Shown here piece after piece: positions 14,956 to 29,828 of a stretch of DNA of 64,000 nt (positions are counted from its first letter, which is position 1; every line of letters starts with the position of its first letter). Both the position numbers and the translations under genes were made by a program. Source of the stretch: Mumia sp. ZJ1417 (lineage in GTDB: Bacteria > Actinomycetota > Actinomycetes > Propionibacteriales > Nocardioidaceae); assembly GCF_014127285.1 (NCBI RefSeq), contig NZ_CP059901.1, forward strand, positions 372,001 to 436,000, in the 5' to 3' direction. Below the pieces are notes generated by a model that was given only the letters and a program-made list of their open reading frames with translations, had not been told where the DNA came from and searched no databases.

Positions 14956-15177
14956 CGGTCGTGAATTGAATCAGCAGTTCACAAGCGTGTTGCTTATCGG
15001 GCGGTTCGGAATTCGAATGTGATGCTTGCCGATTCGAACTTCCTTCACCGCGTGAAAGGGACCAAAGTTGTGAAGCACCGTCAAGGCCGGCGCAGGTGAT
15101 CCTCGGCGCCGGGCACCCTGAGCACGAGGAGTGTGAGGGAAGGGAAGAGGCGGCGTCCATCGAGCGATCCTGGGGCA

Positions 15178-15700
15178 GTCCCCGACGTGATTCGAACGGC
15201 CGTCCTCGGCGCCGAGTTCGCCCCGGGCCAACGACTCGTCCAGGCGCTCCGCACTCCGCAATCTCGTGACCGAAGGACTCCTCGTGCGGATCGCCAACAG
15301 GGGAGCCCGCGTCCGGGTGGTCTCGTTGGAGGAGGCGACCGAGATCTGCGAGGTCCGCATGGTCGTCGAGGCGCTGTGCGCGGCGAAAGCTGCCGATCGC
15401 GTCGACGATGCCGCGAGAGCGCTCCTTCAGCAGATTGCGGCGGAGATGCGCATGGCGGTCGCTGCTGGTGACGTGTTCGGATACTCCGAGCTCAACCAAC
15501 GACCACCGGGCACTGCGGGACCTGGCTGGCAACGAGCCGCGTCCGACGTGCTCGACCGCCTCCACGGGCGGCTCGTCCGCCACCAGTTTGGGCTGGCAAC
15601 CCGCGGGCCGCGGGGGCAGCCGTGCGGCAGCACCTCGCCAGCGTCATCGAGTCCTTGGATCCTGCCGCCGACGCCATGGAGTGCACGCGCACGCCCGTCG
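15178..15700 (+). pseudogene. Decayed GntR/FCD regulator, paralogue of the one at 25628
   Basis: Segments in different frames match the intact regulator at 25628-26299 in order: 'VPDVIRTAVLGAEFAPGQRLV', then, after loss of about 20 codons, 'VTEGLLVRIANRGARVRV' with 'EVRMVVEALCAAKAA', then a frameshift near 15500, 'SDVLDRLHGRLVRHQF', then loss of about 28 codons before 'AVRQHLASVIESLDPAADAM'. At least two deletions and two frameshifts are needed, so it cannot make a working protein. Part of the helix-turn-helix is gone. It is convergent with the tannase-like gene. Close similarity to the intact copy suggests a duplication. Confidence 0.82.
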
Positions 15701-15734: not shown

Positions 15735-17402
15735 TCAGTGGCCGTGCGTCGTCGGCGCCTTGACCGGGCCCGCCTCCCTGAGGGCGCCAGCGATCCAGGC
15801 CATCGCCTCGGGTACGTCGTAGTTCCCGGCGTGCGGCTTGTCCCAGGCCAGCTGGTAGTCCACCTCCTTGACCGATCGGTCGGACTCGAGCGCGCTGTCC
15901 AGGTTGATCGACACCGTGAACGCCGTGTCCCGATCACGCGTTCCGTGCCGGACGTACCAGTACGGTGCCGTGTCGGCGTTCGTCCCGATGTAGTGCATCG
16001 GGTCGATCAGATCGACCTGCTCGTCGACGACCGTTCCTCGCTGCCGGAGGAAGCGGGCCCACGTCAGACCGGTGTCGTCCACTCCCGTGCCGTCGCCGGC
16101 GATCGAGTTGTTGTTCCATGCGTACGCGGTGAAGTTGGAGTACACCTGTTCGTCGGTGCCGAAGAGGTTGGTCTCCCCGCCGGTCAGCCCATTGACGCCG
16201 ACCTGGTCGAACGCTGGGGCCGGCTTGAGCGCCCGCTGCTTGACGACGAACGCCAGATACTTGGTCATGTCGATCGAGACGACCTTGTCCCGATCGTTGT
16301 CGACGTCGATCCAGTCGTTGACCAGCCCGACCGAGGGCACGGTCTCGCCCAGGTCGGGGACCACGTTGGTCGGGGCGGCCTTCATGAAGGTCTCGGCGGA
16401 CCGGGCCACCTCGTCGCGGATCATCTTCAGCATCGTGTCCGCCGTCAGCTTGCGACCGGCGGCGTCCCGCAGCCCCAGGCTCTTGAGGTACGCGGGGTAG
16501 TCGGCCGCGATCGCGGCACTCGTGGCCGGAGCGGGATCCTGTCTGGTGGTAGCCCGGGTCCCGAGTGTCGTGAAGAGCCACTCGTAGGCGATATCGGCGT
16601 TTCCGAGGTCCGTGATCGGGCAGTACGCGTTGGCCGCGAACACGTCGTCGCGGATCGTGCTGCGTCTCTTCGACGAGATCCCCGCCGCGCCGACGTCCGC
16701 GAGGTACGTGTCGTAGTCGCGGCTGTTTCCTGATGCGGCGAGTGCTGCGGTGAGAGCGCCGCCGCCGCTGGTGCCGTTGACGACGATCCGCTCGGCGCTG
16801 CCCGGCATGGCCGAATCGTTGAGACGCAGGTACCGCACCGCGGCCTTGGCGTCGACGACCGCCGCCGGCGACTTGCCCGGGTAGGTGCCGTCCGCGGCCA
16901 CGATCCCGCGACTGCGGCTGGCGACGTCGACGAACACGTACCCGGCTTTGAGCGCCGCGCCAACGTTGCTCGCGGTCGAGTCGTACGCTGCGCCGTCAGT
17001 GACGCTGGCTCTGATGTAGCTGGCCATCCAGCCGCTGTTGTTGACGGCGAAGTAGATCGCCGTGCGGGGGTTCTCGGCTGACGACTCGGGCACGAAGACG
17101 TTCATGCTCTGGTAGCCGCACTCGGGATTCGCGATCTCGCGGCCGTTCTGGGTCTTGGCCATGAGGATCGGATCGGCGACGTAGCAGATCTCCCGGTACC
17201 AGCGGACCGCCATCGGCTGACCGTCCACCGTGACGGTGAGCTCGGTGTAGGCAGCCGGGTCGAAGGCGAGAGCACCATCCTCGGCATCTGACTTCGGGCT
17301 GCCCGGCGGCCCGTGGCCAGCCGATGCCGCCGCGGGGATCGCCGGAGACAACATCCCGCAGATCACGACGCCCGCTACGAGCGCTTGCTTCATCAAGGAC
17401 AT
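15735..17402 (-). CDS. Secreted subtype-B-tannase-like esterase
   Basis: A 555-residue exported alpha/beta hydrolase with a signal peptide (about 1-28). 'CYVADP' followed by 'YQSMNVFVPE' near residues 73-107 and the nucleophile elbow 'VNGTSGGGAL' with Ser212 follow the layout of Lactobacillus-type (subtype B) tannases. A late Asp and His ('RHGTRDRDT', 'WDKPHAGNYD') complete a likely triad. Tannases release gallate from galloyl esters; from sequence alone another aromatic ester is possible. ATG 17402 follows AGGAG by 6 bases. It is divergent from the transporter/ring-cleavage operon, with shared operator-like palindromes between, which supports a gallate-type role. Confidence 0.72.
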   Translation of the reverse strand: MSLMKQALVAGVVICGMLSPAIPAAASAGHGPPGSPKSDAEDGALAFDPAAYTELTVTVDGQPMAVRWYREICYVADPILMAKTQNGREIANPECGYQSMNVFVPESSAENPRTAIYFAVNNSGWMASYIRASVTDGAAYDSTASNVGAALKAGYVFVDVASRSRGIVAADGTYPGKSPAAVVDAKAAVRYLRLNDSAMPGSAERIVVNGTSGGGALTAALAASGNSRDYDTYLADVGAAGISSKRRSTIRDDVFAANAYCPITDLGNADIAYEWLFTTLGTRATTRQDPAPATSAAIAADYPAYLKSLGLRDAAGRKLTADTMLKMIRDEVARSAETFMKAAPTNVVPDLGETVPSVGLVNDWIDVDNDRDKVVSIDMTKYLAFVVKQRALKPAPAFDQVGVNGLTGGETNLFGTDEQVYSNFTAYAWNNNSIAGDGTGVDDTGLTWARFLRQRGTVVDEQVDLIDPMHYIGTNADTAPYWYVRHGTRDRDTAFTVSINLDSALESDRSVKEVDYQLAWDKPHAGNYDVPEAMAWIAGALREAGPVKAPTTHGH

Positions 17403-17469
17403 GAACCACTCCTGTCTGAGGAGGGCCGGTGGGGGCCCCGACCCGGTGTGACGCACGCTACATCGATAG

Positions 17470-17497
17470 ATGATATTGGAGAAGAGATCGTCACCAA
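17470..17497 (-). promoter_or_regulatory. Probable promoter of the tannase-like gene
   Basis: On the minus strand TTGGTG (17492-17497) and TATCAT (17470-17475) are spaced 16 bases, about 70 bases before the ATG. It is the best sigma-70-like match in the divergent region. Confidence 0.4.
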
Positions 17498-17540
17498 TTT
17501 TGTCGAAAGAGCATCGCCGCGGGGCTTCGAATCAGAGTTG

Positions 17541-17572
17541 TTGTGAATATCGTCTTCACAATTGTTCACAAT
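17541..17572. promoter_or_regulatory. Operator-like palindromes in the divergent tannase/transporter promoter
   Basis: Two nested elements are visible. TTGTGAA (17541-17547) and TTCACAA (17555-17561) form a perfect 7-base inverted repeat. ATTGT-TC-ACAAT (17561-17572) is a perfect 5-2-5 palindrome. FCD-type GntR regulators bind short palindromes of this kind. A one-mismatch version (ATTGTCGGCAAT) lies in front of the gntR gene at 25582. The site sits where it could repress both divergent units. Confidence 0.55.
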
Positions 17573-17650
17573 CTGAGGTACCGTGCCTCACGCCTCGCCC
17601 CGAGGCATCACGTCCGTCGGGCACAGTTGCCCGCTCCCCGAGGAGTGCTC

Positions 17651-18643
17651 ATGCACCGGTTGTCCTCTCGCGGCTCGTCCCGCCGATCTCTGCGCCTGCT
17701 CGCCGGCGTCGCGCTCACCCTCTCGCTCGCTCTCTCGGCGTGCGGAGGCGGCGACGACGACTCGTCCGCCGACGCGGACGGGACGACGTCGGTGACGGTC
17801 GGGGTGATCCCGATCATCGACGTCGCCCCGATCTACCTCGGGATCGAGCAGGGCTTCTTCGAGGACGAGGGTCTTGATCTCACGCTCGAGACGGCCCAGG
17901 GCGGTGCGGCGATCGTTCCCGGTGTCGTGAGCGACCAGTTCCAGTTCGGCTTCAGCAACTCGATCTCGCTGATGGTCGCCAACACGCAGGGGCTGCCGCT
18001 CAAGGTCGTCAGCGCCGGTGTCACCTCCACCGGCGAGGTGGGCAAGGACTTCGGTGGTGTCATCGTCAAGAGCGACAGCGACATCACGTCCGCCGCCGAC
18101 CTCGCCGGCAAGAAGGTCGCGGTCAACACGCTGAAGAACATCAACACCACCACCATCAACGAGGCCGTCCGGCAGGACGGTGGGGACCCGTCGTCGATCG
18201 AGTACGTCGAGCTTGCCTTCCCCGACATCGTCTCCGCGGTCGCCAAGGGGGACGTCGACGCAGGTCAGGTCGTGGAGCCGTTCCTCACGATCGCGACCCA
18301 GGGCGGCGACCGCCAGGTGAGCTCCAACTACGTCGCAACGGATCCCGACCTCGAGGTCGCGATGTACTTCACGACCTCGACGTACGCCGAGAAGAACCCC
18401 GAGGTCGTCGAGAGCTTCACCGCTGCGATGAACAAGTCGCTCGACTACGCCCAGGAGCACCCCGACGAGGTGCGCGACATCCTCGGCACCTACACCGAGA
18501 TCGACCCGAAGGTCGCCGAGGCCGTCGCCCTGCCGCGGTGGTCGTCGACGCTCGAGACGGAGTCCATCGAGAAGCTCGCCGACCTCGCCGAGCAGGACGA
18601 GCTGATCACGAAGCAGCCGGACCTCGAGGCTCTGCTGCCGTGA
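17651..18643 (+). CDS. ABC importer substrate-binding lipoprotein, SsuA/TauA/NMT1 type
   Basis: A 330-residue lipoprotein with signal 'LALSAC' (lipidated Cys31), then a two-lobed NMT1/SsuA-like fold: 'VTVGVIPIIDVAPIYLGIEQGFFEDEG' style opening and 'AADLAGKKVAVNTLKN' in the first lobe. Members bind sulfonates, thiamine precursors, nitrate or small aromatic acids. Here the operon (two permeases, an ATPase and OMA-pathway enzymes) suggests an aromatic acid such as gallate; this is inference. ATG 17651 follows CGAGGAG; longer in-frame starts upstream lack a ribosome site. Confidence 0.88.
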   Translation: MHRLSSRGSSRRSLRLLAGVALTLSLALSACGGGDDDSSADADGTTSVTVGVIPIIDVAPIYLGIEQGFFEDEGLDLTLETAQGGAAIVPGVVSDQFQFGFSNSISLMVANTQGLPLKVVSAGVTSTGEVGKDFGGVIVKSDSDITSAADLAGKKVAVNTLKNINTTTINEAVRQDGGDPSSIEYVELAFPDIVSAVAKGDVDAGQVVEPFLTIATQGGDRQVSSNYVATDPDLEVAMYFTTSTYAEKNPEVVESFTAAMNKSLDYAQEHPDEVRDILGTYTEIDPKVAEAVALPRWSSTLETESIEKLADLAEQDELITKQPDLEALLP

Positions 18644-18689
18644 CCACCCTTCACCAGGACGACGAGCGCCGACCACCGGAGGTGACACC

Positions 18690-19523
18690 ATGGGCGCCAC
18701 GCTCACCGCCCCGTCGCAGACGGTGACCCGCCCGATCAGGACACGGCGGGCAGGCCGGCTCCGTGACACCGTGCTCGGCATCCTCGGGCTGGCGGTCGTT
18801 GTCCTGGTGATCGAGCTCCTTCCCCGTGTCGGCGTGGTCGACAGCCGCTTCTTGCCGCCGGCGAGCGAGATGCTGGCCACCCTGTGGGACCAGCTCGGAG
18901 AGCCCTCCTTCTGGACCGCGCTCGGCGACACCCTGCGCGGCTGGGCCATCGGGCTCGCGATCGCGATGGTGGCCGGAGTCGCTGTCGGCATCGTGGTCGG
19001 CAGCATCCCCCTGCTCCGTGCGATCACGGCCTCGACCGTGGAGTTCCTGCGCCCGATCCCGTCCGTCGCTCTGATCCCGCTGGTCGTCCTGATCTACGGC
19101 AGCCAGCCGCAGTCGGCGCTGATCCTCGTCGTGTACGCCTCGTTCTGGCAGGTGCTCGTCCAGGTTCTATACGGCGTGGCCGACGTCGACCCTGTCGTCC
19201 GCGACACCGCGCACTCGTATCGCTTCTCGCGTCGCGCGATCGTCCGCACCGTGATCTGGCCGACCGCGCTCCCGTACGTCGTCACCGGCTTCCGCCTCGC
19301 GGCTGCGGTCGCTCTGATCCTCGAGATCACCGCCGAGCTCATCATCGGCGTCCCCGGCCTAGGACAGCGCATCGGCGTCGCACAGAGCTCCGGCGCCGTC
19401 TCTTTGACGTACGCGCTGGTCATCGTCGTCGGGCTCGTGGGGATCACCGTCAATCTGTTCGCCCGTGTCGTCGAGCGCCGCGCCCTGCGATGGCACAGCT
19501 CGGTCCGGAGGGAGATCGCATGA
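18690..19523 (+). CDS. ABC importer permease 1 (SsuC/TauC type)
   Basis: A 277-residue BPD-type permease with about six membrane segments and the cytoplasmic EAA-like loop ('ITAELIIGVPGLGQRI'). GGAGGTG is 4 bases before the ATG. It differs clearly from the second permease that overlaps it by ATGA, so the importer is probably a heterodimer, whereas most SsuABC systems use one permease twice. It should pair with the ATPase at 20310. Confidence 0.88.
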   Translation: MGATLTAPSQTVTRPIRTRRAGRLRDTVLGILGLAVVVLVIELLPRVGVVDSRFLPPASEMLATLWDQLGEPSFWTALGDTLRGWAIGLAIAMVAGVAVGIVVGSIPLLRAITASTVEFLRPIPSVALIPLVVLIYGSQPQSALILVVYASFWQVLVQVLYGVADVDPVVRDTAHSYRFSRRAIVRTVIWPTALPYVVTGFRLAAAVALILEITAELIIGVPGLGQRIGVAQSSGAVSLTYALVIVVGLVGITVNLFARVVERRALRWHSSVRREIA

Positions 19524-20305
19524 CCGTCCGCTCGCTCGCGCGCCAGGCCGCCCTGACCCTCGGCCTGCCGGTCGCGATGATCGCCCTGTGGTGGGTCGTC
19601 TCGGCCAACAGCACCAGCATCTTCTGGCCGCCGCTCTCGGAGATCGTCGAGGCATTTCCCGAGACCTGGACGTGGGACCGGATCGTCAACTCTGTCGTCC
19701 CGAGCGTCGTACGACTGCTCACCGGATACACGATCGCGGTTGTCGTCGGCGTTGCCGCCGGCACAGCGATCGGACTCTCGCGCAACGTCCGCGCCTTCTG
19801 CGAACCGTCGATGGAGTTCTTCCGTGCGATCCCGCCGCCCGTCCTGGTGCCCATCATCGCCCTGTTCACCGGCTACACCGGCGCCACCGCGAAGATCGTC
19901 ACGATCGCGCTGGGCTGCCTGTGGCCAGTCCTGCTCAACACTGTCGAGGGCGTACGGGGCCTGGACGAGGTTCAGCTAGACACCGCGCGATGCTACCGGT
20001 TCCGCACACGCTCTCGGCTGATCCATGTCGTGCTGCGCGGTGCGAGCCCACAGATCTCCACCGGAGCACGCCAGGCTCTCTCGATCGGCGTGATTCTCAT
20101 GGTCGTGAGCGAGCTCTTCGGGGCCAACAGCGGGCTGGGTGCCGACATCGTGCAGTTCCAGCGCAGCTTCGCGATCCCGCAGATGTGGACCGGCATCATC
20201 ATGCTCGGGCTTATCGGCGTCGTTCTCTCGGCCATCTTCCGCATCGTCGAGAACCGCGCGCTCGCCTGGTACTACGGCTTGCGACGCGCCGACCGAGGAG
20301 CGTGA
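19520..20305 (+). CDS. ABC importer permease 2 (SsuC/TauC type)
   Basis: A 261-residue permease of the same family as its upstream neighbour but divergent in sequence. It has about six membrane segments, 'PSMEFFRAIPPPVLVPIIALF' and the EAA-type loop 'VSELFGANSGLGADI'. The start is ATG 19520, overlapping the previous stop; a longer frame runs through the first permease gene and is not real. The ATPase gene starts four bases after the stop. Confidence 0.88.
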   Translation: MTVRSLARQAALTLGLPVAMIALWWVVSANSTSIFWPPLSEIVEAFPETWTWDRIVNSVVPSVVRLLTGYTIAVVVGVAAGTAIGLSRNVRAFCEPSMEFFRAIPPPVLVPIIALFTGYTGATAKIVTIALGCLWPVLLNTVEGVRGLDEVQLDTARCYRFRTRSRLIHVVLRGASPQISTGARQALSIGVILMVVSELFGANSGLGADIVQFQRSFAIPQMWTGIIMLGLIGVVLSAIFRIVENRALAWYYGLRRADRGA

Positions 20306-20309
20306 CCCC

Positions 20310-21185
20310 ATGACCTTCTCCACACGCGGCGGCCCGACGTCGCCCGAGACCGTAGAGACGGGAACCACCGTGCCCCCATCGTCCCAGCCGCCCGTCGCGC
20401 TCGACGTCGACGGCCTGCGCAAGATCTACCGCAGCGACAACGGCGACGTCGAAGCCGTGCGTGACCTCACCTTCTCGGTGTCGCGCGGTGAGCTGGTGTG
20501 CATCGTCGGACCGTCCGGCGCAGGAAAGACGACGCTGCTGCGCTGCATCGCGGGCCTCTTGGACCTCACTGAGGGCAGCGTGACCCTCGACGGCCAGTCC
20601 GTCGACGGGCCGCCCGAAGGCATGGCAGTGGTGTTCCAGGAGTACGGACGCAGCCTCTTCCCGTGGATGACCGTGCGGCAGAACGTGGAGATGCCTCTGA
20701 AGGAAAAGGGCCTGCGTCGCGCCGAGCGCCGAGAGAAGGTCGACGCCGCCCTCGAGGCCGTGGGGCTTGCCGACGTGTCGACTGCTCACCCGTGGCAGCT
20801 TTCAGGAGGCATGCAGCAGCGAGTCGCGATCGCCCGCGCCGTCGCGTACGAGCCGAGCGTCCTGTTGATGGACGAGCCGTTCGCGGCGGTCGACGCCCAG
20901 ACCCGTGCCGATCTCGAGGACCTTGTCCGCGAACTCTGGCGACGTCTCGGTGTGACGGTCCTCTTCGTCACCCACGACATCGACGAGGCCGTGTTCCTCG
21001 GTCAACGGGTGCTCGTGCTCTCCAACCGCCCCACCGTCGTCCTCGAGGACGTCAACGTCGACCTGCCCGACGAGCGCTTCCAGCTGGAGACCCGCTCGTC
21101 GCCTCGCTTCGCCGAGCTCCGTGCCCGCGTGTACGAGCTCATCCAGGCGGCGAAGAAGGGCGTCCGGTCGACCGCGGAGGTATGA
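20310..21185 (+). CDS. ABC importer ATPase (SsuB/TauB type)
   Basis: A 291-residue ATPase: Walker A 'GPSGAGKTTLL', Q-loop 'VFQEYGRSLFPWMTV', signature 'LSGGMQQRVAIARA', Walker B 'VLLMDEPFAAVD' and H-loop 'VTHDIDEAVFL'. The 'LFPW' after the Q-loop is typical of the nitrate/sulfonate/taurine group. It energises the two permeases upstream. The stop overlaps the start of the DUF1932 dehydrogenase gene (ATGA), tying transport to catabolism. Confidence 0.92.
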   Translation: MTFSTRGGPTSPETVETGTTVPPSSQPPVALDVDGLRKIYRSDNGDVEAVRDLTFSVSRGELVCIVGPSGAGKTTLLRCIAGLLDLTEGSVTLDGQSVDGPPEGMAVVFQEYGRSLFPWMTVRQNVEMPLKEKGLRRAERREKVDAALEAVGLADVSTAHPWQLSGGMQQRVAIARAVAYEPSVLLMDEPFAAVDAQTRADLEDLVRELWRRLGVTVLFVTHDIDEAVFLGQRVLVLSNRPTVVLEDVNVDLPDERFQLETRSSPRFAELRARVYELIQAAKKGVRSTAEV

Positions 21186-21952
21186 GCGTGGCGACCGTCG
21201 CGGTTCTCGGGGTCGGAGAGGCAGGTACGGCGCTGGTAGCCGACCTGCTCGGCGCCGGGGTCACCGTCCGTGTCCACGACCCGGTGGTCGCAACCCCGGG
21301 GGGCGCGACCGGTTGCCGTGACGACGCCGACGCCGTCGCGGGTGCTGCGCTCGTGATCAGCGTGAACAGTGCCGCCGACGCCCTCGACGCGGCTCGGGTC
21401 GGAGGGCCGGCATGCGCGCCGGGCACCGTGTGGGCCGACCTCAACACCGCCTCGCCGCAGCGCAAGTCCGAAGTCGCAGACGTCCTCCCACCCGAGGTCC
21501 GGTTCGCCGACGTCGCGCTGATGTCGATCGTCCCCGGGCATGGAATTCGTACGCCGATGCTCGTGAGCGGCCCCGGCGCGGAGGCGTACGCCGCGTTCGT
21601 GCGACCGCTCGGCACGCAAATCGACGTGCTCGCCGGTCCGCCAGGAGTCGCTGCGCAACGCAAGCTCATGCGCAGCGTCCTCTACAAAGGAATGGCGGCG
21701 GCGGTCATCGAGGCCGTCGCCGCCGGCCGCGCCGCTGGACTCGAGGACTGGATCCGCGCCGAGATCGCCCGCGAGCTAGACCAGCTCAGCGCCGGCTCTC
21801 TTGACCGGTTCGAGAAGGGCAGCCGGGCCCACGCCGTCCGCCGGGCGCACGAGATGGATGCGGCCGTTCAGATGCTCGACACACTCGGTGTTCCGGGGCG
21901 GGTCAGTGCAGCGAGCCGCGACTGGCTGAACGATCTCAGATCACCACCATGA
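21182..21952 (+). CDS. NAD(P)-dependent dehydrogenase of the 6-phosphogluconate dehydrogenase/DUF1932 family
   Basis: A 256-residue protein with an N-terminal Rossmann fold ('VAVLGVGEAGTALVADLL') and a helical DUF1932 C-terminal domain ('QRKLMRSVLYKGMAAAVIEA' carries the usual catalytic Lys region of this superfamily). It belongs to the beta-hydroxyacid dehydrogenase group in the broad sense. Substrate unknown. It is locked into the operon by ATGA on its 5' side and lies directly before galB, so it probably acts on a pathway intermediate or on a side product such as an oxo acid. Known gallate pathways do not need it. Confidence 0.78.
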   Translation: MSVATVAVLGVGEAGTALVADLLGAGVTVRVHDPVVATPGGATGCRDDADAVAGAALVISVNSAADALDAARVGGPACAPGTVWADLNTASPQRKSEVADVLPPEVRFADVALMSIVPGHGIRTPMLVSGPGAEAYAAFVRPLGTQIDVLAGPPGVAAQRKLMRSVLYKGMAAAVIEAVAAGRAAGLEDWIRAEIARELDQLSAGSLDRFEKGSRAHAVRRAHEMDAAVQMLDTLGVPGRVSAASRDWLNDLRSPP

Positions 21953-21999
21953 CCCAGCACGTGCACTCAAGACCGTTGAATCTCCGGGAAAGGAACACC

Positions 22000-22746
22000 G
22001 TGTCTGTTGACACCGACCGCTCACCCCGCTCCACCCTCGTCATCACCGCCCACGCCGGCGACTTCGTCTGGCGTGCCGGCGGCGCGATCGCACTCGCGGC
22101 TTCCCGCGGCGAGTCGGTGACCATCGCCTGCCTGACCTTCGGCGAGCGGGGCGAGTCTGCTCGCGCCTGGCGCGAAGGACGCGCGCTGGACGAGATCAAG
22201 GCGATCCGTCGTGACGAGGCCGAGAAGGCCGCAGCGACTCTTGGCGCCGAGGTCCGCTTCTTCGATGCGGGAGACTACCCACTCATCGCGACCGCCGAGC
22301 TCACCGACCAGTTGGTCCGGCTCTACCGCGAACTCGCTCCCGACGTCGTCCTGACCCACCCGCTCGATGATCCGTACAACGCCGACCACCCGGCGGCCGC
22401 ACGGATGGCGCTCGACGCTCGCGTTCTCGCGCAGGCCGTCGGCTATCCCGCCGATGGTGAGCCGCTCGGCGCGCCGCCCGTCTTCTACTTCGAGCCACAC
22501 CAGCCTGAGATGTGCGGGTTCGTGCCCGAGGTCCTCCTCGACATCACGGAGGTTTTCGACACCAAGCGTGCCGCGATGGAGTGTCTGGCCGCGCAGCATC
22601 ACCTCTGGGACTACTACACCGACCTCGCAAAGCGACGCGGCGTGCAGCTCAAGCGCAACGCCGGACCGAACCTCGGCCTGGCGAGCACCACGTTCGGCGA
22701 GGCCTACATGCGGCCTTTCCCGCAGGTGACGGACGTGCTCGCATGA
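22000..22746 (+). CDS. galB: 4-oxalomesaconate hydratase, PIG-L-type (GalB-like)
   Basis: A 248-residue PIG-L-fold zinc enzyme. 'AHAGDF' (His18, Asp21) and 'YNADHP' supply the metal ligands. 'GERGESARAWREGRA', 'FFDAGDYPL', 'EPHQPE' and 'HHLWDYY' are features I associate with Pseudomonas putida GalB rather than with GlcNAc deacetylases. GalB hydrates 4-oxalomesaconate to 4-carboxy-4-hydroxy-2-oxoadipate (CHA). GTG 22000 is preferred because GGGAAAGGA lies just upstream; an ATG at 21949 overlapping the previous stop would add 17 residues. The galC start overlaps its stop. Confidence 0.86.
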   Translation: MSVDTDRSPRSTLVITAHAGDFVWRAGGAIALAASRGESVTIACLTFGERGESARAWREGRALDEIKAIRRDEAEKAAATLGAEVRFFDAGDYPLIATAELTDQLVRLYRELAPDVVLTHPLDDPYNADHPAAARMALDARVLAQAVGYPADGEPLGAPPVFYFEPHQPEMCGFVPEVLLDITEVFDTKRAAMECLAAQHHLWDYYTDLAKRRGVQLKRNAGPNLGLASTTFGEAYMRPFPQVTDVLA

Positions 22747-23459
22747 GCGGCGTCATCGTGACCGACTGCCCTCGGCCTGACCCCGAGGATGTCGCGCGTC
22801 TGCGCGACTACGGCGTCGCCACGATCCACGAGGCGATGGGGCGCACCGGCAGCCTCGGCCCGGACCTGCGTCCGGTCCAGCAAGGTCTCACCATCGCCGG
22901 CGGCGCGGTGACTGCGCTGTGCTGGTCGGGTGACAACTTGATGATCCATGCCGCAGTCGAGCAGTGCGGACCCGGCGACCTGCTGGTGGTGGCAACCGCT
23001 GCCCCGAGCACCCATGGCATGTTCGGCGAGCTCTTTGCGACCGCGCTAGCCCACCGTGGCGTCGTCGGAATCGTCATCGACGCCGGCGTGCGTGACACCT
23101 TTGAGCTGCGTGCCATGGGTTTCGGTGCGTGGTCGCGGCACGTAAGCGCCGAAGGCACGGTCAAGGCGACAGGTGGATCGGTGAACGTCCCGGTGGTCCT
23201 GGCGGGCCAGGTCGTCGCGCCCGGTGACGTGGTCGTGGCCGACGACGACGGTGTCGTGCGCGTCCCGCTGGCCGACGTTCGCACGACGATCGAGGCCTGC
23301 GAGGCGCGGCTCGCGAAGGAGGCAGCCTCGCGCGCAGCGTTCGGTCGGGGTGAGCTCGGCCTGGACCGGTACGACCTGCGCGAGCTTCTGAACCGGCTCG
23401 GAGTCGTCTACCGCACGCATGAGGAGCAGACCGCGCCTAGCACCGAGGGCGCACCGTGA
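22743..23459 (+). CDS. galC: CHA aldolase / oxaloacetate decarboxylase, RraA-like fold (GalC/LigK-like)
   Basis: A 238-residue class II aldolase of the RraA/HMG-aldolase family. 'GELFATALAHRGVVG' and 'DAGVRDTFELR' carry the conserved Gly-Glu-Leu and the Arg-Asp pair that hold substrate and Mg/Mn. It cleaves 4-carboxy-4-hydroxy-2-oxoadipate to pyruvate and oxaloacetate and often decarboxylates oxaloacetate. Length equals that of characterised GalC/LigK enzymes. It overlaps galB (ATGA) and galD (GTGA), so the three are co-translated. Confidence 0.88.
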   Translation: MSGVIVTDCPRPDPEDVARLRDYGVATIHEAMGRTGSLGPDLRPVQQGLTIAGGAVTALCWSGDNLMIHAAVEQCGPGDLLVVATAAPSTHGMFGELFATALAHRGVVGIVIDAGVRDTFELRAMGFGAWSRHVSAEGTVKATGGSVNVPVVLAGQVVAPGDVVVADDDGVVRVPLADVRTTIEACEARLAKEAASRAAFGRGELGLDRYDLRELLNRLGVVYRTHEEQTAPSTEGAP

Positions 23460-24532
23460 CGAGCGGAGTCCGGTGTGCACTCATGCGAGGCGGCACCTCG
23501 AAGGGCGGCCTATTTCTCGCTGAAGACCTTCCGGCGGACGTCGCTGCACGTGATGCCCTTCTTCTGCGCGTCATGGGCAGCCCTGACCCGCGCCAGATCG
23601 ATGGGCTCGGGGGGGCGCACCCGTTGACCAGCAAGGTTGGCGTGGTGTCACGTTCTGACGAACCCGGCATCGACGTCGACTACCTATTCCTGCAGGTTGT
23701 CGTCGATGCGCCGGTCGTGTCCACCTCCCAGACCTGTGGCAACATCCTTGCCGCCGTCGGTCCGTTCGCGGTCGAGCGTGGCCTCGTCCTCGCGCGAGAC
23801 GGCGTGACGGAGGTGCGGGTGCGGATGGTGAACAACGACGGTCGCGCGACCCTCCATGTCCGTACCCCTGGCGGTGTCGTCACGTACGACGGAGACACGG
23901 AGCTCGCCGGCGTGCCGGGCACTGCGGCACCGGTGGAGATCGACCTTCAGGCGCTGACGGTGCCGCTGCTGCCGACCGGCCACCTGACTGATGAGCTTGC
24001 CGGCGTGACGGTGACCTGCATCGACAACGGGATGCCGTCGGTCATCGTCCGCGCCGGCGACCTCGGGTGTACCGGCGCGGAGTCCCCGGACGCTCTCGAG
24101 TCCGACGTAGCGCTCGTCGCGCGAATCGGTCGGATCCGCGCCGAGGCCAGCGCCGCGATGGGACTTCCGTCCGACCTGGCCACGTCCACCGTGCCGAAGG
24201 TCGTGCTGGTTTCTCCGCCCGAGGGCGGTGGCACTCTGCAGACCCGGAGCTTCATCCCGCACCGCGTGCACCAGGCGATCGGGGTCCTCGGCGCCGCCAC
24301 CGTCGCTGCGGCCGCCGCTCTTCCCGGGACGGTCGCCCACGAGCTCGCTGCTGGCCCGGCCCCCGGCCGTCCACTCCGGATCGAGCACCCCACCGGCTTC
24401 CTCGACGTCGCGGTCGCGTCCGGCAACGACACCGAAGACCTCACGCCGTCAGTCGCCCGGACGACGATCGTCCGCACTGCGCGGATGCTGATGGACGGCA
24501 CCGTCTACGCCGGGCCCGCCCGCGCCCTGTGA
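23456..24532 (+). CDS. galD: 4-oxalomesaconate tautomerase, PrpF family (GalD-like)
   Basis: A 358-residue PrpF-family isomerase with the hallmark 'ALMRGGTSKGGLF' near the N-terminus, 'TSQTCGNILAAVGPFA' and, near the end, a second diaminopimelate-epimerase-like half. GalD converts the keto form of 4-oxalomesaconate to the enol form used by GalB. PrpF itself acts on methylaconitate, but the direct coupling to galB and galC and the absence of a methylcitrate gene set favour the GalD role. GTG 23456 overlaps the galC stop. Confidence 0.86.
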   Translation: MTSGVRCALMRGGTSKGGLFLAEDLPADVAARDALLLRVMGSPDPRQIDGLGGAHPLTSKVGVVSRSDEPGIDVDYLFLQVVVDAPVVSTSQTCGNILAAVGPFAVERGLVLARDGVTEVRVRMVNNDGRATLHVRTPGGVVTYDGDTELAGVPGTAAPVEIDLQALTVPLLPTGHLTDELAGVTVTCIDNGMPSVIVRAGDLGCTGAESPDALESDVALVARIGRIRAEASAAMGLPSDLATSTVPKVVLVSPPEGGGTLQTRSFIPHRVHQAIGVLGAATVAAAAALPGTVAHELAAGPAPGRPLRIEHPTGFLDVAVASGNDTEDLTPSVARTTIVRTARMLMDGTVYAGPARAL

Positions 24533-24564
24533 CAACGAACCATCGAGACCACAAGGAGACCACC

Positions 24565-25521
24565 ATGCCGGCACCGATGGGCGACATCGCCCACCTCGGC
24601 CATGTCGAGCTGCTCACGCCCGACCTCGACGGAACTGTCTGGTTCTTCACCGAGATCCTCGGCCTGACCGAGTCCTCCCGTGATGCGGGCTCGGCGTACC
24701 TGCGGACCTTCGACGACTACGAGGAGACGAGCATCGTGGTCACCTCGAACAAGACGCCCGGCCTCGGCCGTACAGCCCTGCGCGCTTCGAGCGAGGAAGC
24801 GCTTCAGCGGCGCGTCCGCGCGATCGAGGCGTCGGGCGGTGTGGGCCGTTGGGAGGAAGGCCGTGCGGGCACCGGACGGACGTACGTGACGACCGACCCC
24901 GACGGCCACGAGATCGGGCTGTACTACGAGACCAGGTGGTACGAGGCCCCGCCCGAGCTTGCGCCGGGCCTCAAGAACCAGCCGCAAGCGAAGCCTCGCC
25001 AAGGAGTTGGTGTTCGTCGGCTCGACCACGTGAACTTCCTGGCCGCATCGGTCCTCCCCAACGCCGAGTTCATCGGCGACGTCCTGGGTGCCCGTCCCAC
25101 CGAGCAGATCCAGCTCGACACCGGCAAGATCGCCGCCCGGTGGCTCACTTTCAACAACAAGTCGTACGACCTCGTCTACACCGAGGACTGGTCCGGCTCG
25201 TCAGGCCGGTTGCACCACATCGCCTTCGCCACCGATACACGTGAAGACATCTTGCGCGCCGCCGACCTGTGCCTCGACAACGGCGTGTTCATCGAGACCG
25301 GGCCGCACAAGCACGCGATCCAGCAGACGTTCTTCCTGTACGTCTACGAACCCGGCGGTAACCGCATCGAGCTCTGCAACCCGCTGACGCGGCTGGTGCT
25401 CGCGCCGGACTGGTCCTTGATCACCTGGACGGAGAAGGAGCGCGCGAAGGGGCAAGCGTGGGGCCTGAAGACGATCCAGAGCTTCCACACCCACGGCACA
25501 CCGCCGCTGCCAGAAGCATGA
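24565..25521 (+). CDS. Type I (VOC) extradiol ring-cleavage dioxygenase
   Basis: A 318-residue two-domain vicinal-oxygen-chelate protein. The N-terminal module (about 8-125) lacks metal ligands; the C-terminal module supplies Fe(II) ligands His155 ('LDHVNFL'), His218 ('LHHIAFA') and Glu269 ('GNRIEL'), a spacing close to catechol 2,3-dioxygenase (153, 214, 265). It should cleave an aromatic diol or triol next to the hydroxyls. Location after galBCD makes gallate or protocatechuate the likely substrate. Known gallate dioxygenases are LigB-type, an unrelated fold, so this would be a replacement. AAGGAG precedes the ATG. Confidence 0.82.
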   Translation: MPAPMGDIAHLGHVELLTPDLDGTVWFFTEILGLTESSRDAGSAYLRTFDDYEETSIVVTSNKTPGLGRTALRASSEEALQRRVRAIEASGGVGRWEEGRAGTGRTYVTTDPDGHEIGLYYETRWYEAPPELAPGLKNQPQAKPRQGVGVRRLDHVNFLAASVLPNAEFIGDVLGARPTEQIQLDTGKIAARWLTFNNKSYDLVYTEDWSGSSGRLHHIAFATDTREDILRAADLCLDNGVFIETGPHKHAIQQTFFLYVYEPGGNRIELCNPLTRLVLAPDWSLITWTEKERAKGQAWGLKTIQSFHTHGTPPLPEA

Positions 25522-25565
25522 CGTCGACATGCTCGAGGCAGGGCCGCGCCACCCCTCGCCTAACC

Positions 25566-25593
25566 TATGATCTGTGTCAATATTGTCGGCAAT
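25566..25593 (+). promoter_or_regulatory. gntR promoter -10 and downstream operator-like palindrome
   Basis: TATGAT (25566-25571) is a strong -10 hexamer. ATTGTCGGCAAT (25582-25593) follows and differs by one base from the ATTGT-N2-ACAAT palindrome at 17561. Its position just downstream of the -10 would allow autorepression. Confidence 0.5.
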
Positions 25594-25627
25594 CCGGGAC
25601 CGGCGCAGGGATAGAGGGAGGTCGCTC

Positions 25628-26299
25628 ATGGCGGCAGGCAACCAGCGTCCGACGAGTGATCCCCAGGTCGTGACGGCGGCGATCCGCGACGCGATCCTTG
25701 GGGCGGACTTCGTTCCCGGCCAGCGGCTCGTCGAAGCAGACCTCTCCGAGCAGTTCCACGCGAGCCGCGCGGCCGTCCGTGCGGCGCTCTTCAGCCTTGC
25801 GACCGAGGGGCTCGTCGAGCGGATCGCAAACCGTGGCGCACGGGTGAGGGTCATCTCGCTCGACGAAGCGACTGAGATCTACGAGGTACGGATGGTGGTC
25901 GAGGCGCTCTGTGCGGCGAAGGCCGCCGAGCGGGTCGACGACGAGGCGATCGTGATGCTCCGGCAGATCGGCACGGACATGCGTACGGCGGTGGCCTCTG
26001 GTGACGTGTTCGGATACTCGGCTCTCAACCAGCGGCTCCACCAGGCGCTGCGCGACCTCAGCGGGCAGCACACAGCAGCCGACGTCCTCGACCGCCTGCA
26101 CGGCCAGCTGGTCCGTCACCAGTTCAAGCTCGCCACCAAGCCCGGCCGCCCGCAGGTCTCCATCGTGGAGCACCTGGAGATCATCGAGGCGGTCTGCGCA
26201 CGTGATCCCGACGCCGCTTCGGCTGCCGTGCGACGGCACCTTGAAAGTGTCATCGACGCGATGCGTCAATCGGCGGCGCAAGAAGCTGCAGCGGTGTGA
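25628..26299 (+). CDS. GntR-family regulator with FCD ligand domain
   Basis: A 223-residue regulator: winged helix-turn-helix (about 10-75, 'LSEQFHASRAAVRAALFSLATEG') and an all-helical FCD domain (about 85-215) with the usual metal/ligand positions Asn and His in 'LNQRLHQAL', His in 'VEHLEI' and His in 'VRRHLES'. FCD regulators respond to organic acids, often a pathway intermediate. GGGAGG lies 7 bases before ATG 25628; an in-frame GTG at 25574 would put the putative operator inside the gene. It follows the ring-cleavage operon in the same direction and is the likely controller of it and of the divergent tannase-like gene. A decayed copy lies at 15178. Confidence 0.88.
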   Translation: MAAGNQRPTSDPQVVTAAIRDAILGADFVPGQRLVEADLSEQFHASRAAVRAALFSLATEGLVERIANRGARVRVISLDEATEIYEVRMVVEALCAAKAAERVDDEAIVMLRQIGTDMRTAVASGDVFGYSALNQRLHQALRDLSGQHTAADVLDRLHGQLVRHQFKLATKPGRPQVSIVEHLEIIEAVCARDPDAASAAVRRHLESVIDAMRQSAAQEAAAV

Positions 26300-26365: not shown

Positions 26366-27994
26366 TCAGGCTGCCGGGCTCACCTCGTCCCAGAGCTCGC
26401 ACTTGTGCGAAGCCTCGATATCGGTGCTCGAGACCTCAGCGGCGCTCGGAGCGACGAACTGGAGCTGGTTCCCTTCGACGCGGTAACGCGGCCAGTCAGG
26501 TGCATGCCGGACGTCGGGATCCCCGACCTCGGCAAAGCTCGCCCAGTAGCTGATCATCTGGTTCGACAGGTCGACCTGATCGGTGCTGAACGGCAGCGCG
26601 GTGCCGAGGTAGTCCCACAGATACCCGAGATCGTTCACGTGGGTGGCACCGAACGGATAGTCGGTGTTCAGGCGCCAGATCGAGGTGAACGGAGGCCCGT
26701 CCTTCTCGGCGAACTCGTACGCGTACGTGCGGGTGTCCGCGGCGAACCGGTTGCGTTGCGTCTGATCGGTGCAGGCGCGTTCGTCGCTCTGGATCGCGCC
26801 CCACGCGACGGTCGGCGAGTGGTAGTCCCCGACGTCGTACGCGGCCTTGACCGCATCGGCTCCGTCCTCGTAGGTCGAGTCGATCAGGTCCGACACCTGC
26901 TCCTCGGTGAGCGGGTTTCCGCGATAGTCGTACTGCCCGAACACGGACTGCTGGCGCTCGTCGGAGGTACCCCCGATGATGACAGGCAGGTTCGTGAGCC
27001 TGCCGGCCTTCAACAGCTCGAACGGGTCCTCGGGCAGCACGCGGGTGCCGTACACCGAGGCGCTTTGTCCGACCTTCTGCTGTGCCGCAAGCACCTCGGC
27101 CGGGCTCTTCGAGCGCAGACACGCGGTCTGGCCCGCACCCGTGGCGCAGCCGAGCTCGGCCGCGAACCTGTCGCCGCTGGTCGCAGCGGCCTCCTGGGTG
27201 CGCGCGGGTGAGTTGCAGCCGCCGCTCTGGAGAATGACCCGGTCGAACAGACCCTTCGCACCGGGTGAGGCGAGCTGGGTGCAGGTGTTGCGTGCGCCTG
27301 CGGACTGACCGGCGAGCGTGACGTTGTCGGGGTCACCGCCGAAGGAGCGGATGTTCTTCTGAACCCACTTGAGCGCTGCCTGCTGGTCGAGGATCCCGAA
27401 GTTGCCGGCGGCACCGTCGCGGTTGTCCTGGTTGATGCCGTTGGTGTAGAGCCAGCCCATCGCCCCGAGGCGGTAGTTGATGGTCACGAAGACGACGTCT
27501 TGCTTCGTGACGAACTTGTCGGGGTTCGTGTCGCGTCCCGCGCCGCCGGTGTTGCCGCCGCCGTGGTTCCAGACGAAGACGGGGAGCTTCTTCTTCGAGC
27601 TGTTCGTGGGGCGGTAGACGTTGAGGTAGAGGCAGTCCTCGGTCAACGTCACTTCTTCGTACCCCGGATCCCAGCCGCTGCCCTGGACGCAGGAGCCGCC
27701 GAACTCGGTGGCGTCCCTGACGCCGCGCCACGACTCGGCGCTCTGTGGCGCCTTCCACCGCAGGTTGCCGACGGGTGGCTCGGCGTACGGGATGCCTTTG
27801 AACGAGGTGACCATGGACTTGGCCTCACCCCGGACCTGTCCCTTGTCGGTGCGAACCACCGGATACTGGCCCGCGTACTCGCCGCCGGCGTCGTGGCGGA
27901 TCGTGGTGACGACCCCTGATGCGGCTGGAATACCGACGGCGACGAGCGCCGCGCCGGAGACCGCTGCGAGCAGTGTTGAGTGGAGTCTTCTCAT
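26366..27994 (-). CDS. Secreted type-B carboxylesterase
   Basis: A 542-residue exported esterase with an N-terminal signal (about 1-28). Family marks: 'SFKGIPYAEPPVGNLRW', 'TEDCLYLNVYRP', nucleophile 'AGQSAGARN' (Ser), acid Glu in 'GTSDERQQ', and His in 'ATHVNDLGYLW'. The usual Gly after GQSAG is Ala, which is tolerated in some members. It hydrolyses carboxylic esters outside the cell; the substrate is not defined, but three other secreted esterases and an aromatic-acid pathway are neighbours. GAGAGGA precedes the ATG. It is convergent with the GntR gene. Confidence 0.88.
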   Translation of the reverse strand: MRRLHSTLLAAVSGAALVAVGIPAASGVVTTIRHDAGGEYAGQYPVVRTDKGQVRGEAKSMVTSFKGIPYAEPPVGNLRWKAPQSAESWRGVRDATEFGGSCVQGSGWDPGYEEVTLTEDCLYLNVYRPTNSSKKKLPVFVWNHGGGNTGGAGRDTNPDKFVTKQDVVFVTINYRLGAMGWLYTNGINQDNRDGAAGNFGILDQQAALKWVQKNIRSFGGDPDNVTLAGQSAGARNTCTQLASPGAKGLFDRVILQSGGCNSPARTQEAAATSGDRFAAELGCATGAGQTACLRSKSPAEVLAAQQKVGQSASVYGTRVLPEDPFELLKAGRLTNLPVIIGGTSDERQQSVFGQYDYRGNPLTEEQVSDLIDSTYEDGADAVKAAYDVGDYHSPTVAWGAIQSDERACTDQTQRNRFAADTRTYAYEFAEKDGPPFTSIWRLNTDYPFGATHVNDLGYLWDYLGTALPFSTDQVDLSNQMISYWASFAEVGDPDVRHAPDWPRYRVEGNQLQFVAPSAAEVSSTDIEASHKCELWDEVSPAA

Positions 27995-28067
27995 GGATGC
28001 TTCCTCTCTACTGGTGGTCTTGGTCCCGAGAGCCGTGCCGCCATCGGCACGAGATCGTGGAGTCGCG

Positions 28068-29453
28068 TCAGCCCTCCCATGACGCGAAGGGCTGCGGCAG
28101 GAAGGCGACGCGGGTGACGAAGTCCTTGAGCAGGAGCCGCCACACGTTCCAGTTGTGGCCGCCGTGGACGAAGTCGGGCGTCACCGGGACGCCCGCGTCG
28201 ACGAAGGTCGAGACTTCCATCGCGGGCCCCGTGTGGAAGTTGTTGAAGCCCTTGGCGAAGATGACGTCCTGCCATCCGGCGCCGATGAAGACCGAGACCT
28301 TCTTCAGCGCGGTGACTTGCTCGTCCGAGAGCGTCTGCCCGGGAGCCAGGCCGGCGCTCATCATGCCGTAGTAGCCGAACTGCTCGGTGTCGTTCAGCAT
28401 CAGGTGGTTGGTGATGCGGCCACCTGCCGAGAGTCCCGAGAAGGCGCGGTCGGCGGCGGTTGTTGAAACGTGATAGCGATCTTCGACCCACGGGATGATG
28501 CGGTCGATGAGGTCTGATCGGAAGGCGGCGTTGTCGGTCGATGCCGGGTAGCCGTTGGCGTTCGGCATGACGACTACCATCGGGACGACCTCGCCGGTGG
28601 CGATGAGGTTGTCCATGATGTTCTTGACGTCACCCTGTGTGCTCCACCCCATCTCGTTCTCCCCTCCGCCGTGATTGAGGTAGAGCGTCGGATACGGCTC
28701 GGAGCGGCGCGGGTCGTAGGACGGCGGGGTGTAGACCACGAGCCGGTTCTCGTCGACCGGCGTGACGTGTCCGGGCGAGCTGTACGTGGCGATGCGCAGC
28801 TTGCCCTGCTTCTTCGCCGGCGCCTGCCATGAGTAGTCGACGGTGCCGAAGCGGCTGTCGGAGGGCACATAGACCTGGCTGTTGGGGACGGCGGATCCCG
28901 TCACGGTGTCGTTCTTCTCGTTCCACGGTGCGTTGCTCGGGTCAGAGACCGGGGTGCACCCAGCACCGTTGTCCGTCGGGCAGTCGACGAAGAAGGCGTA
29001 GGTGAAGACGCCGGACGGCAGAGGAGTCGTGAAGGTCCAGACGCCGTTGCGTTCCTTCGCCATGTCGTTGACCGGGAAGTTCGGGTCGGTCGAGTTCGGG
29101 TAGGGCATCGGGGCGTCGCCAGGCCGCCAGTCGAGGGGCAGGATGCCTTGCGACTCCACCGTGTGGTCTGGCGTGCTCGCGACCTGCGGGAGGGCGCTCG
29201 GTCGGACGAAGGACCACTCGCCCTTGATCTGCACCCGTGATGCTGTCGGGGCGTAGTAGCGGAAGGTCACCGAGTAGCCGGTGGGCGCCTTGCCGGTGTG
29301 CTTGAGGACGGGGCTGGTGCCAAGGCGTCGGTCGTGGCCGCCGCGGTCCGCAGGGGTCGCTGCATGTCCCGCGACGACGACGGTCAGCGCGCTGGCGCCG
29401 AGGATGGCCGCCGCGGCGCGAAGTCCGTTGCGCCAGAAGGAGCTGGTCGACAT
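28068..29453 (-). CDS. Secreted CE1/enterochelin-esterase-type hydrolase (feruloyl-esterase-like)
   Basis: A 461-residue exported protein: signal (about 1-32), an E-set/CBM48-like N-terminal domain ('GYSVTFRYYAPTASRVQIKG'), then an esterase-D-type alpha/beta hydrolase with Ser in 'FSGLSAGGRITN' and His in 'VHGGHNWNVWR'. The GGHxW element is typical of CE1 feruloyl/acetyl xylan esterases. It may release hydroxycinnamate or similar aromatic acids from plant polymers. ATG 29453 follows GAGAGGC; an ATG at 29504 adds residues that do not look like signal peptide. It is co-directional with the carboxylesterase at 26366, which starts 73 bases after its stop. Confidence 0.8.
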   Translation of the reverse strand: MSTSSFWRNGLRAAAAILGASALTVVVAGHAATPADRGGHDRRLGTSPVLKHTGKAPTGYSVTFRYYAPTASRVQIKGEWSFVRPSALPQVASTPDHTVESQGILPLDWRPGDAPMPYPNSTDPNFPVNDMAKERNGVWTFTTPLPSGVFTYAFFVDCPTDNGAGCTPVSDPSNAPWNEKNDTVTGSAVPNSQVYVPSDSRFGTVDYSWQAPAKKQGKLRIATYSSPGHVTPVDENRLVVYTPPSYDPRRSEPYPTLYLNHGGGENEMGWSTQGDVKNIMDNLIATGEVVPMVVVMPNANGYPASTDNAAFRSDLIDRIIPWVEDRYHVSTTAADRAFSGLSAGGRITNHLMLNDTEQFGYYGMMSAGLAPGQTLSDEQVTALKKVSVFIGAGWQDVIFAKGFNNFHTGPAMEVSTFVDAGVPVTPDFVHGGHNWNVWRLLLKDFVTRVAFLPQPFASWEG

Positions 29454-29828
29454 CGTTCTGCCTCTCGGTGGTGTGCCGATGGACGCGTACGTGATGTACG
29501 CCACGTAAACGGGAAGTTAGGCGGCTCTGATGTGGCCGTCAAACCGTGAAGTCTGCAGAGCGGTATGTAACTGCAAGTCTTCATAATCTGAACGCAGAGC
29601 CGATTTGACCTGTCATGTCAGGCGACCACGCGTGCGCAGGCAGTCGCTTGCCTTCGCAAATCGGAGGCAAAATATTCACAGTTCTGTCGGCCAGATCAGC
29701 GACCAGATTGTCGACAGTAGGTTCATACCCTGAAGGGAAGATGTCGGCTGACCGATTGACAGGGGGCTTCGCGCTGGGTCAGTGTGAGGCGCATCACGCT
29801 CACCATTTCGGCCTGTAGGGGGACCGTC
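29454..29828. promoter_or_regulatory. Divergent promoter region between two esterase genes
   Basis: 375 bases without a gene. It contains TACGTG/CACGTA (29488-29493, 29502-29507), CTGTCG/CGACAG (29684-29689, 29712-29717) and ATTGTCGACAGT (29707-29718), which differs by one base from the ATTGT-N2-ACAAT palindrome in front of the tannase/transporter genes. The stretch 29561-29680 is AT-richer than its surroundings. I cannot place the promoters with confidence. Confidence 0.4.

Follow-up and report, generated by a model that had tools for sequence, protein, structure and literature searches.

Which enzyme opens the aromatic ring in an operon that encodes the conversion of 4-oxalomesaconate and carries a dioxygenase of the VOC family? 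We addressed this question for Mumia sp. ZJ1417, in a window of 64,000 nucleotides (bases 372001-436000 of the single-contig genome, which measures 4.19 Mb and is 99.75% complete) to which all positions below refer. The operon contains genes for GalB, GalC and GalD, followed by the VOC (type I extradiol) dioxygenase at 24565..25521 (+), and a tannase homolog is encoded divergently from its start. Judged from sequence, the locus probably serves tannin and gallate utilisation, with the VOC enzyme acting as a widespread gallate dioxygenase that is non-homologous to GalA of Pseudomonas putida and DesB of Sphingobium SYK-6.

The three enzymes downstream of ring cleavage were identified beyond the level of motifs. 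GalB (21949..22746, +), a 4-oxalomesaconate hydratase of the PIG-L fold (PF02585), matched the solved structure PDB 5cgz, '4-oxalmesaconate hydratase', over residues 27-265 with 267 bits (E=1e-78). GalC (22743..23459, +), an RraA-like 4-carboxy-4-hydroxy-2-oxoadipate (CHA) aldolase (PF03737), scored 302 bits against NF006731, above its cut-off of 179, and 260 against TIGR02798, below its cut-off of 304.5. GalD (23456..24532, +), a 4-oxalomesaconate tautomerase of the PrpF family, reached 456.9 bits against NF033377, for which the cut-off is 440. The identification of all three indicates that the operon specifies the enzymes converting 4-oxalomesaconate into pyruvate and oxaloacetate. On the DNA, GalB is followed by GalC, GalD and then VOC, and the junctions from the first ABC permease through PrpF measure -4, +4, -4, -4, -4 and -4 bases, followed by +32 between PrpF and VOC and +106 between VOC and the GntR gene. 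A preliminary description of this DNA had reported GalD, GalB and GalC genes with stop/start overlaps, and these were borne out as overlaps of 4 bases.

We then compared the neighbours of VOC, within up to 10 kb, in the best 80 of 566 homologs, which came mostly from Streptomyces and also from Mumia, Actinomadura and Nonomuraea; 16 of these loci were shortened by contig ends. PrpF and GntR each occurred near VOC in 78 of the 80 loci, RraA in 77 and PIG-L in 70, and homologs of LigA or LigB were found in none. Among 396 Actinomycetota genomes, a 4-oxalomesaconate tautomerase exceeded the cut-off in nine, and VOC was directly adjacent in eight of them. The ninth (G544) carries LigC-B-A-I-J around the tautomerase and aldolase and has no VOC at E<=1e-40; Lig names in locus L145 were assigned from sequences and gene order, that of LigB being backed by a separate search. 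The same gene set was also found on proteobacterial plasmids, namely Agrobacterium pAt, Thioclava, Pararhizobium, Rhizobium 11515TR, Hyphomicrobiales UR115 and Pantoea piersonii, where the tautomerase is followed by VOC at a distance of about 6 kb. A LigJ homolog (65-66% identity) lies near VOC in Methylobacterium and one further genome (G028), in whose stretches GalB and GalD homologs were not found, indicating that the hydratase family changes (GalB or LigJ) while VOC stays constant. Gene identities, gene order and conservation can be read from these sequences directly.

The VOC enzyme itself was examined by structure prediction and alignment. Its model (mean pLDDT 81.1) shows two domains and conforms to the two-domain VOC fold, with Foldseek TM-scores by query length of 0.73-0.84 among the matches listed. 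Among these matches, the best solved folds were AphC (PDB 7q2a, 4-ethylcatechol) and 3lm4 of RHA1, at 37-38% identity, followed by XylE and other catechol dioxygenases and then by HPCD. An alignment was built from tblastn matches of >240 residues, comprising 113 rows for the clade, at 53-100% identity to the window enzyme, and 10 outgroup rows (28-42%) chosen from plasmid matches; removal of duplicates left 99 clade sequences including that of the window. The metal ligands His155, His218 and Glu269, recognised in the preliminary description, are invariant in all 99 distinct sequences, and a 2-His-1-carboxylate site is therefore present throughout the clade. His248 and Arg293 are likewise invariant in the 99 and absent from the outgroup, and seven positions in total are specific to the clade, with a support of 0.984 for the split between clade and outgroup.

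These data bear on the idea of an ordinary catechol 2,3-dioxygenase whose place in the operon is incidental. Its score against TIGR03211 (catechol 2,3-dioxygenase) is 315.4 bits, barely below the curated cut-off of 320.2, and several homologs are named catechol 2,3-dioxygenase in deposited records. The score nevertheless lies under that cut-off, the seven clade-separating positions set the enzyme apart, and PrpF accompanies it almost everywhere among the 80 loci, so that we regard this explanation as very improbable.

One of the seven positions concerns catalysis. The position of HPCD His200, which we take to be the second-sphere catalytic acid-base residue, is Tyr201 in all 99 clade sequences and His in all 10 outgroup sequences; the second-sphere histidine is thus lacking in the clade. 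HPCD and XylE (1mpy) have in common with the window enzyme the VOC fold and the 2-His-1-Glu site, and the equivalent of HPCD Tyr257 is retained; they differ at His200, and His248 and Arg293 distinguish the clade from the outgroup. AphC, which was solved with an alkylcatechol, and 3lm4 have His where the window enzyme has Tyr201. The closest solved relative by sequence, PDB 9wgj (366.6 bits; a VOC family protein under the depositors' name 'Catechol 1,2-dioxygenase'), has Tyr at the 201 position like the window enzyme and, unlike it, Ser at position 248.

The chemistry of gallate offers a tentative account of this exchange. Gallate has three neighbouring hydroxyls, and by chemical reasoning cleavage of its C3-C4 bond counts as intradiol for one diol and as extradiol for the other, with 4-oxalomesaconate as the product in either case. 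We consider it conceivable, though on the doubtful side, that the clade swapped His200 for Tyr since the third vicinal hydroxyl of gallate takes over the proton relay, and that selection for extradiol fidelity was relaxed because intradiol cleavage at the 3,4-diol and extradiol cleavage at the 4,5-diol break one and the same bond and yield an identical product. That a single bond serves for either mode of cleavage fits a clade that keeps its metal site while changing its acid-base residue. If this account were true, the enzyme would be specific for trihydroxybenzenes, with little catechol or protocatechuate activity, and a Tyr-to-His exchange would raise catechol activity.

The substrate is suggested by the gene divergent from the operon start, which the preliminary description had overlooked. 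The 555-residue protein encoded at 15735..17402 (-) matched solved tannases, with E=5.5e-61 for PDB 6yq4, 'Tannase', and 7.8e-48 for 4j0c; its ATG start is at 17402, and the longest open reading frame begins with a GTG at 17456. It aligns with the solved tannases in the GTSGGG, DRDT and PH.G.YD blocks, which presumably carry the tannase Ser/Asp/His triad, and its N-terminus has a hydrophobic, signal-like stretch as judged by eye. By its conserved blocks and its signal-like N-terminus it qualifies as a secreted subtype-B-like tannase homolog, predicted to hydrolyse galloyl esters. Tannases free gallate from such esters, and the position of this homolog beside the operon therefore points to gallate.

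We further analysed the distribution of the tannase homolog. In the Streptomyces genus group (199 genomes), VOC was present in 45 and tannase in 7, and all 7 were among the 45 VOC-positive genomes (hypergeometric p=2.1e-5, kinship ignored). The tannase shared a contig with VOC in three of the seven, at 23-29 kb in G357 and G441 and at about 0.8 Mb in G752, and lay on another contig in four; the match was in two pieces in G621 and G752. In the family of the window, 1 of 197 genomes has the tannase, namely Mumia sp. ZJ1417, itself among 6 VOC-positive genomes. Within the 80 VOC loci, a tannase homolog was found in five, at 62-65% identity in four and at 32% in one. Moreover, Agrobacterium pAt (walnut) combines PIG-L, VOC, aldolase and tautomerase genes with a tannase matching PF07519 at 437.9 bits; this tannase belongs to a different family, the window tannase having no PF07519 match.

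A second type of putative gallate-forming enzyme adjoins two operons. In genome G511 it is a LigM-like O-demethylase (PDB 5x1i, E=1.8e-217), and in G003 a homolog 70% identical to it. Such a neighbour is expected if gallate derives from syringate or 3-O-methylgallate, and it could also be taken to mean that the main substrate of the VOC enzyme is a different pyrogallol-type acid (3-O-methylgallate or a galloyl fragment) and that gallate is secondary. We consider this unlikely: gallate, as the product of demethylation, agrees with a neighbouring O-demethylase, and gallate is what tannases release. GalD, GalB and GalC, moreover, act on 4-oxalomesaconate, the ring-cleavage product of gallate, according to two publications (PMC8431788; PMC9942251).

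Other ring-cleavage genes of the genome were also considered. The preliminary description had left room for a LigB-type gallate dioxygenase elsewhere in the genome. A PF02900 (LigB) search of the genome, made without a GalA or DesB positive control, gave a single match (82 bits, profile positions 32-260) and none in the window; this match is presumably YgiD/DODA-like by its motif, and an ordinary LigB gallate dioxygenase at another site was rejected on this by-eye assignment. No LigA was found in the genome, where the control matched nowhere either. Queries for LigA, LigB, LigC, LigI and LigJ, taken from G544, Roseomonas and G151, gave no match in the window at E<=1e-5, and the Lig 4,5-cleavage set was thus not recovered there. 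LigI was also sought among the amidohydrolases of the genome, which gave three matches: the two that were inspected were judged by eye not to be LigI-like, and one of them had a weak LigJ match (27%). A pair of genes at 119.4-120.3 kb of the genome, which we take to be PcaH/PcaG-like (protocatechuate 3,4-dioxygenase-like), lies beside a regulator that looks IclR-type. With this pair present, protocatechuate probably takes the ortho route in Mumia sp. ZJ1417, which would leave the operon free for gallate.

This result weighs on a further possibility, that the VOC enzyme performs protocatechuate 4,5-cleavage as a type I dioxygenase, with the DUF1932 dehydrogenase oxidising the semialdehyde and an unlinked hydrolase making 4-oxalomesaconate. 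The recurrence of DUF1932 beside VOC would agree with it, as would a Roseomonas cluster in which Rieske/VanB-type genes accompany homologs of LigA, LigB and LigI. DUF1932 is, on the other side, found in none of the 80 best VOC loci, which yielded weak LigC-like matches (26-31%, 133-173 aa) in nine and a LigI-like edge fragment of 49 residues in one; the window has no Lig homolog, and the co-occurrence with tannase points to gallate. Because LigC and LigI were not found in the window and the PcaGH-like pair is present, protocatechuate 4,5-cleavage was rejected as the principal explanation, and we assign it a low probability.

Several observations count against the assignment of VOC as a gallate dioxygenase. 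The other 5 VOC-positive genomes of the family lack the tannase, as do, at the cut-off used, 38 of the 45 VOC-positive Streptomyces genomes. Of the 396 Actinomycetota genomes, 11 are LigM-positive and only one of these (G511) has the operon, and LigM was for this reason rejected as a general marker of the operon. A PIG-L match is missing in 10 of the 80 loci, RraA in 3 and PrpF in 2, one of which is a contig-edge locus. The Tyr201 change could signal altered or weak oxygen chemistry. Finally, Roseomonas L003, in which no GalB or GalD homologs were found in the stretch, and locus L144 of G151 have homologs of LigA and LigB alongside VOC, and VOC may therefore not be the gallate enzyme in these two clusters. 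The L144 cluster comprises homologs of GalB, GalC, GalD, VOC, LigA and LigB, to which are added an intradiol dioxygenase and a gene of the iron-type alcohol dehydrogenase family that looks maleylacetate reductase-like by eye; several ring-cleavage enzymes thus adjoin one another in it.

The proposal that a type I extradiol enzyme feeds 4-oxalomesaconate to GalD, GalB and GalC, already put forward in the preliminary description, is supported by the divergent tannase, by the finding of no protocatechuate- or gallate-type LigB in the genome, and by the conservation of VOC with GalBCD in Actinomycetota and Proteobacteria. The exchange of GalB and LigJ around a constant VOC and the LigM-like O-demethylases beside two operons add to this support. 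In the pathway that we propose, the secreted tannase would release gallate from galloyl esters of plant tannins, and the ABC importer, or an MFS carrier in Streptomyces, would bring it into the cell. The VOC enzyme, with Fe(II) and O2, would cut the C3-C4 (equivalently C4-C5) bond of gallate to give 4-oxalomesaconate. GalD would tautomerise this product, GalB would hydrate the tautomer to 4-carboxy-4-hydroxy-2-oxoadipate, and GalC would split the latter into pyruvate and oxaloacetate. The GntR/FCD protein would regulate the gene set through a presumed ligand.

The importer genes open the operon. They encode an NMT1/SsuA-like ABC substrate-binding lipoprotein (17651..18643, +; PF09084, 131 bits; SsuA_fam 110.7, under the cut-off of 163.5), two ABC permeases (18690..19523 and 19520..20305, both + and PF00528) and an ABC ATPase (20310..21185, +; PF00005), and they are followed by a DUF1932/6-phosphogluconate-dehydrogenase-like oxidoreductase (21182..21952, +; PF09130 41.4 bits, PF03446 24.1; PDB 3qsg, E=1.4e-25). 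The coordinates and Pfam matches agree with the SsuABC-type importer and DUF1932 dehydrogenase placed upstream of galB in the preliminary description. Its claim that the route has its own ABC importer is less well supported: two further VOC-positive genomes were found in the genus, of which one has the whole importer near the operon and the other keeps the binding protein only, and an MFS carrier lies downstream of VOC in 60 of the 80 loci (one member checked with Pfam). We know of no step in gallate breakdown for the DUF1932 dehydrogenase. It recurs beside VOC in Nonomuraea, proteobacterial and several other actinobacterial clusters (L002-L005, L144, L147, L148, L156-L159), the Pantoea match being at 28%. 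In two genomes of the family, G003 and G028, a DUF6282 gene (PF19799) lies near VOC, GntR and DUF1932 (L147, 1210-2187, -; L148, 12580-13497, +).

The proposed operon regulator is a GntR/FCD protein encoded at 25628..26299 (+; PF07729, PF00392). The presumed promoter/operator is the divergent intergenic region of 194 bases at 17457..17650. The GntR-type operator TNGTNNNACNA had 3 matches in the window, against 6.3 expected by chance, with none near the operon and none in this intergenic region. A degenerate second GntR/FCD copy was observed at 15151-15619 (+), about 61% identical over residues 22-176 and with a stop and a frame change; 251 of its bases are 76% identical to the intact gene 10.5 kb away, and the two copies form direct repeats bracketing the tannase and the operon. 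Directly 3' of the operon, at 26366-31400, lie three esterase-family genes (two COesterase, PF00135, and one PF00756), which could act on galloyl or feruloyl esters.

We compared the locus with characterised systems. The LigB-type (type II) GalA belongs to the galTAPRBCD genes of P. putida. With these the window shares GalB, GalC and GalD homologs and the same expected intermediates, and the Streptomyces versions have an MFS carrier as with GalT; it differs from them by its VOC enzyme in place of GalA, a GntR/FCD regulator in place of the LysR-type GalR, an ABC importer and a neighbouring tannase. For DesB of SYK-6, whose fold is unrelated to the VOC fold, the reaction is the same as that proposed here, from gallate to 4-oxalomesaconate. 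The tautomerase and aldolase are also common to the LigABCIJUK set for protocatechuate 4,5-cleavage, and a LigJ homolog occurs near VOC where GalB is not found; unlike that set, the window has no detected LigA, LigB, LigC, LigI or LigJ homolog. DesB is described as a type II extradiol dioxygenase in PMC3962378. PMC9942251 (section 5) names P. putida, SYK-6, N. aromaticivorans and R. opacus PD630 as organisms whose gallate pathway has been characterised, and attributes that of R. opacus PD630 to Cai et al. 2021. The preliminary description had called the system undescribed. Literature searches, at the level of titles and beginnings of abstracts and with most subscription papers outside their coverage, showed no type I gallate dioxygenase; the status is uncertain because a gallate cluster of R. 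opacus has already been reported, and this cluster may be prior art for the VOC route.

If the VOC enzyme is a gallate dioxygenase, gallate ring opening would have evolved at least twice, from unrelated folds. The VOC version may then be the main gallate route in Actinomycetota, as it adjoins eight of the nine strong tautomerases and occurs in 45 of the 199 Streptomyces genomes. In public records, genes of this kind carry the label VOC family protein or catechol 2,3-dioxygenase, and the flow of carbon from tannin and syringyl lignin in soil actinobacteria would therefore be mis-annotated. The same gene set recurs in many soil bacteria, and its invariant Tyr allows the need for the acid-base residue His200 in a well-studied enzyme class to be gauged on a natural variant.

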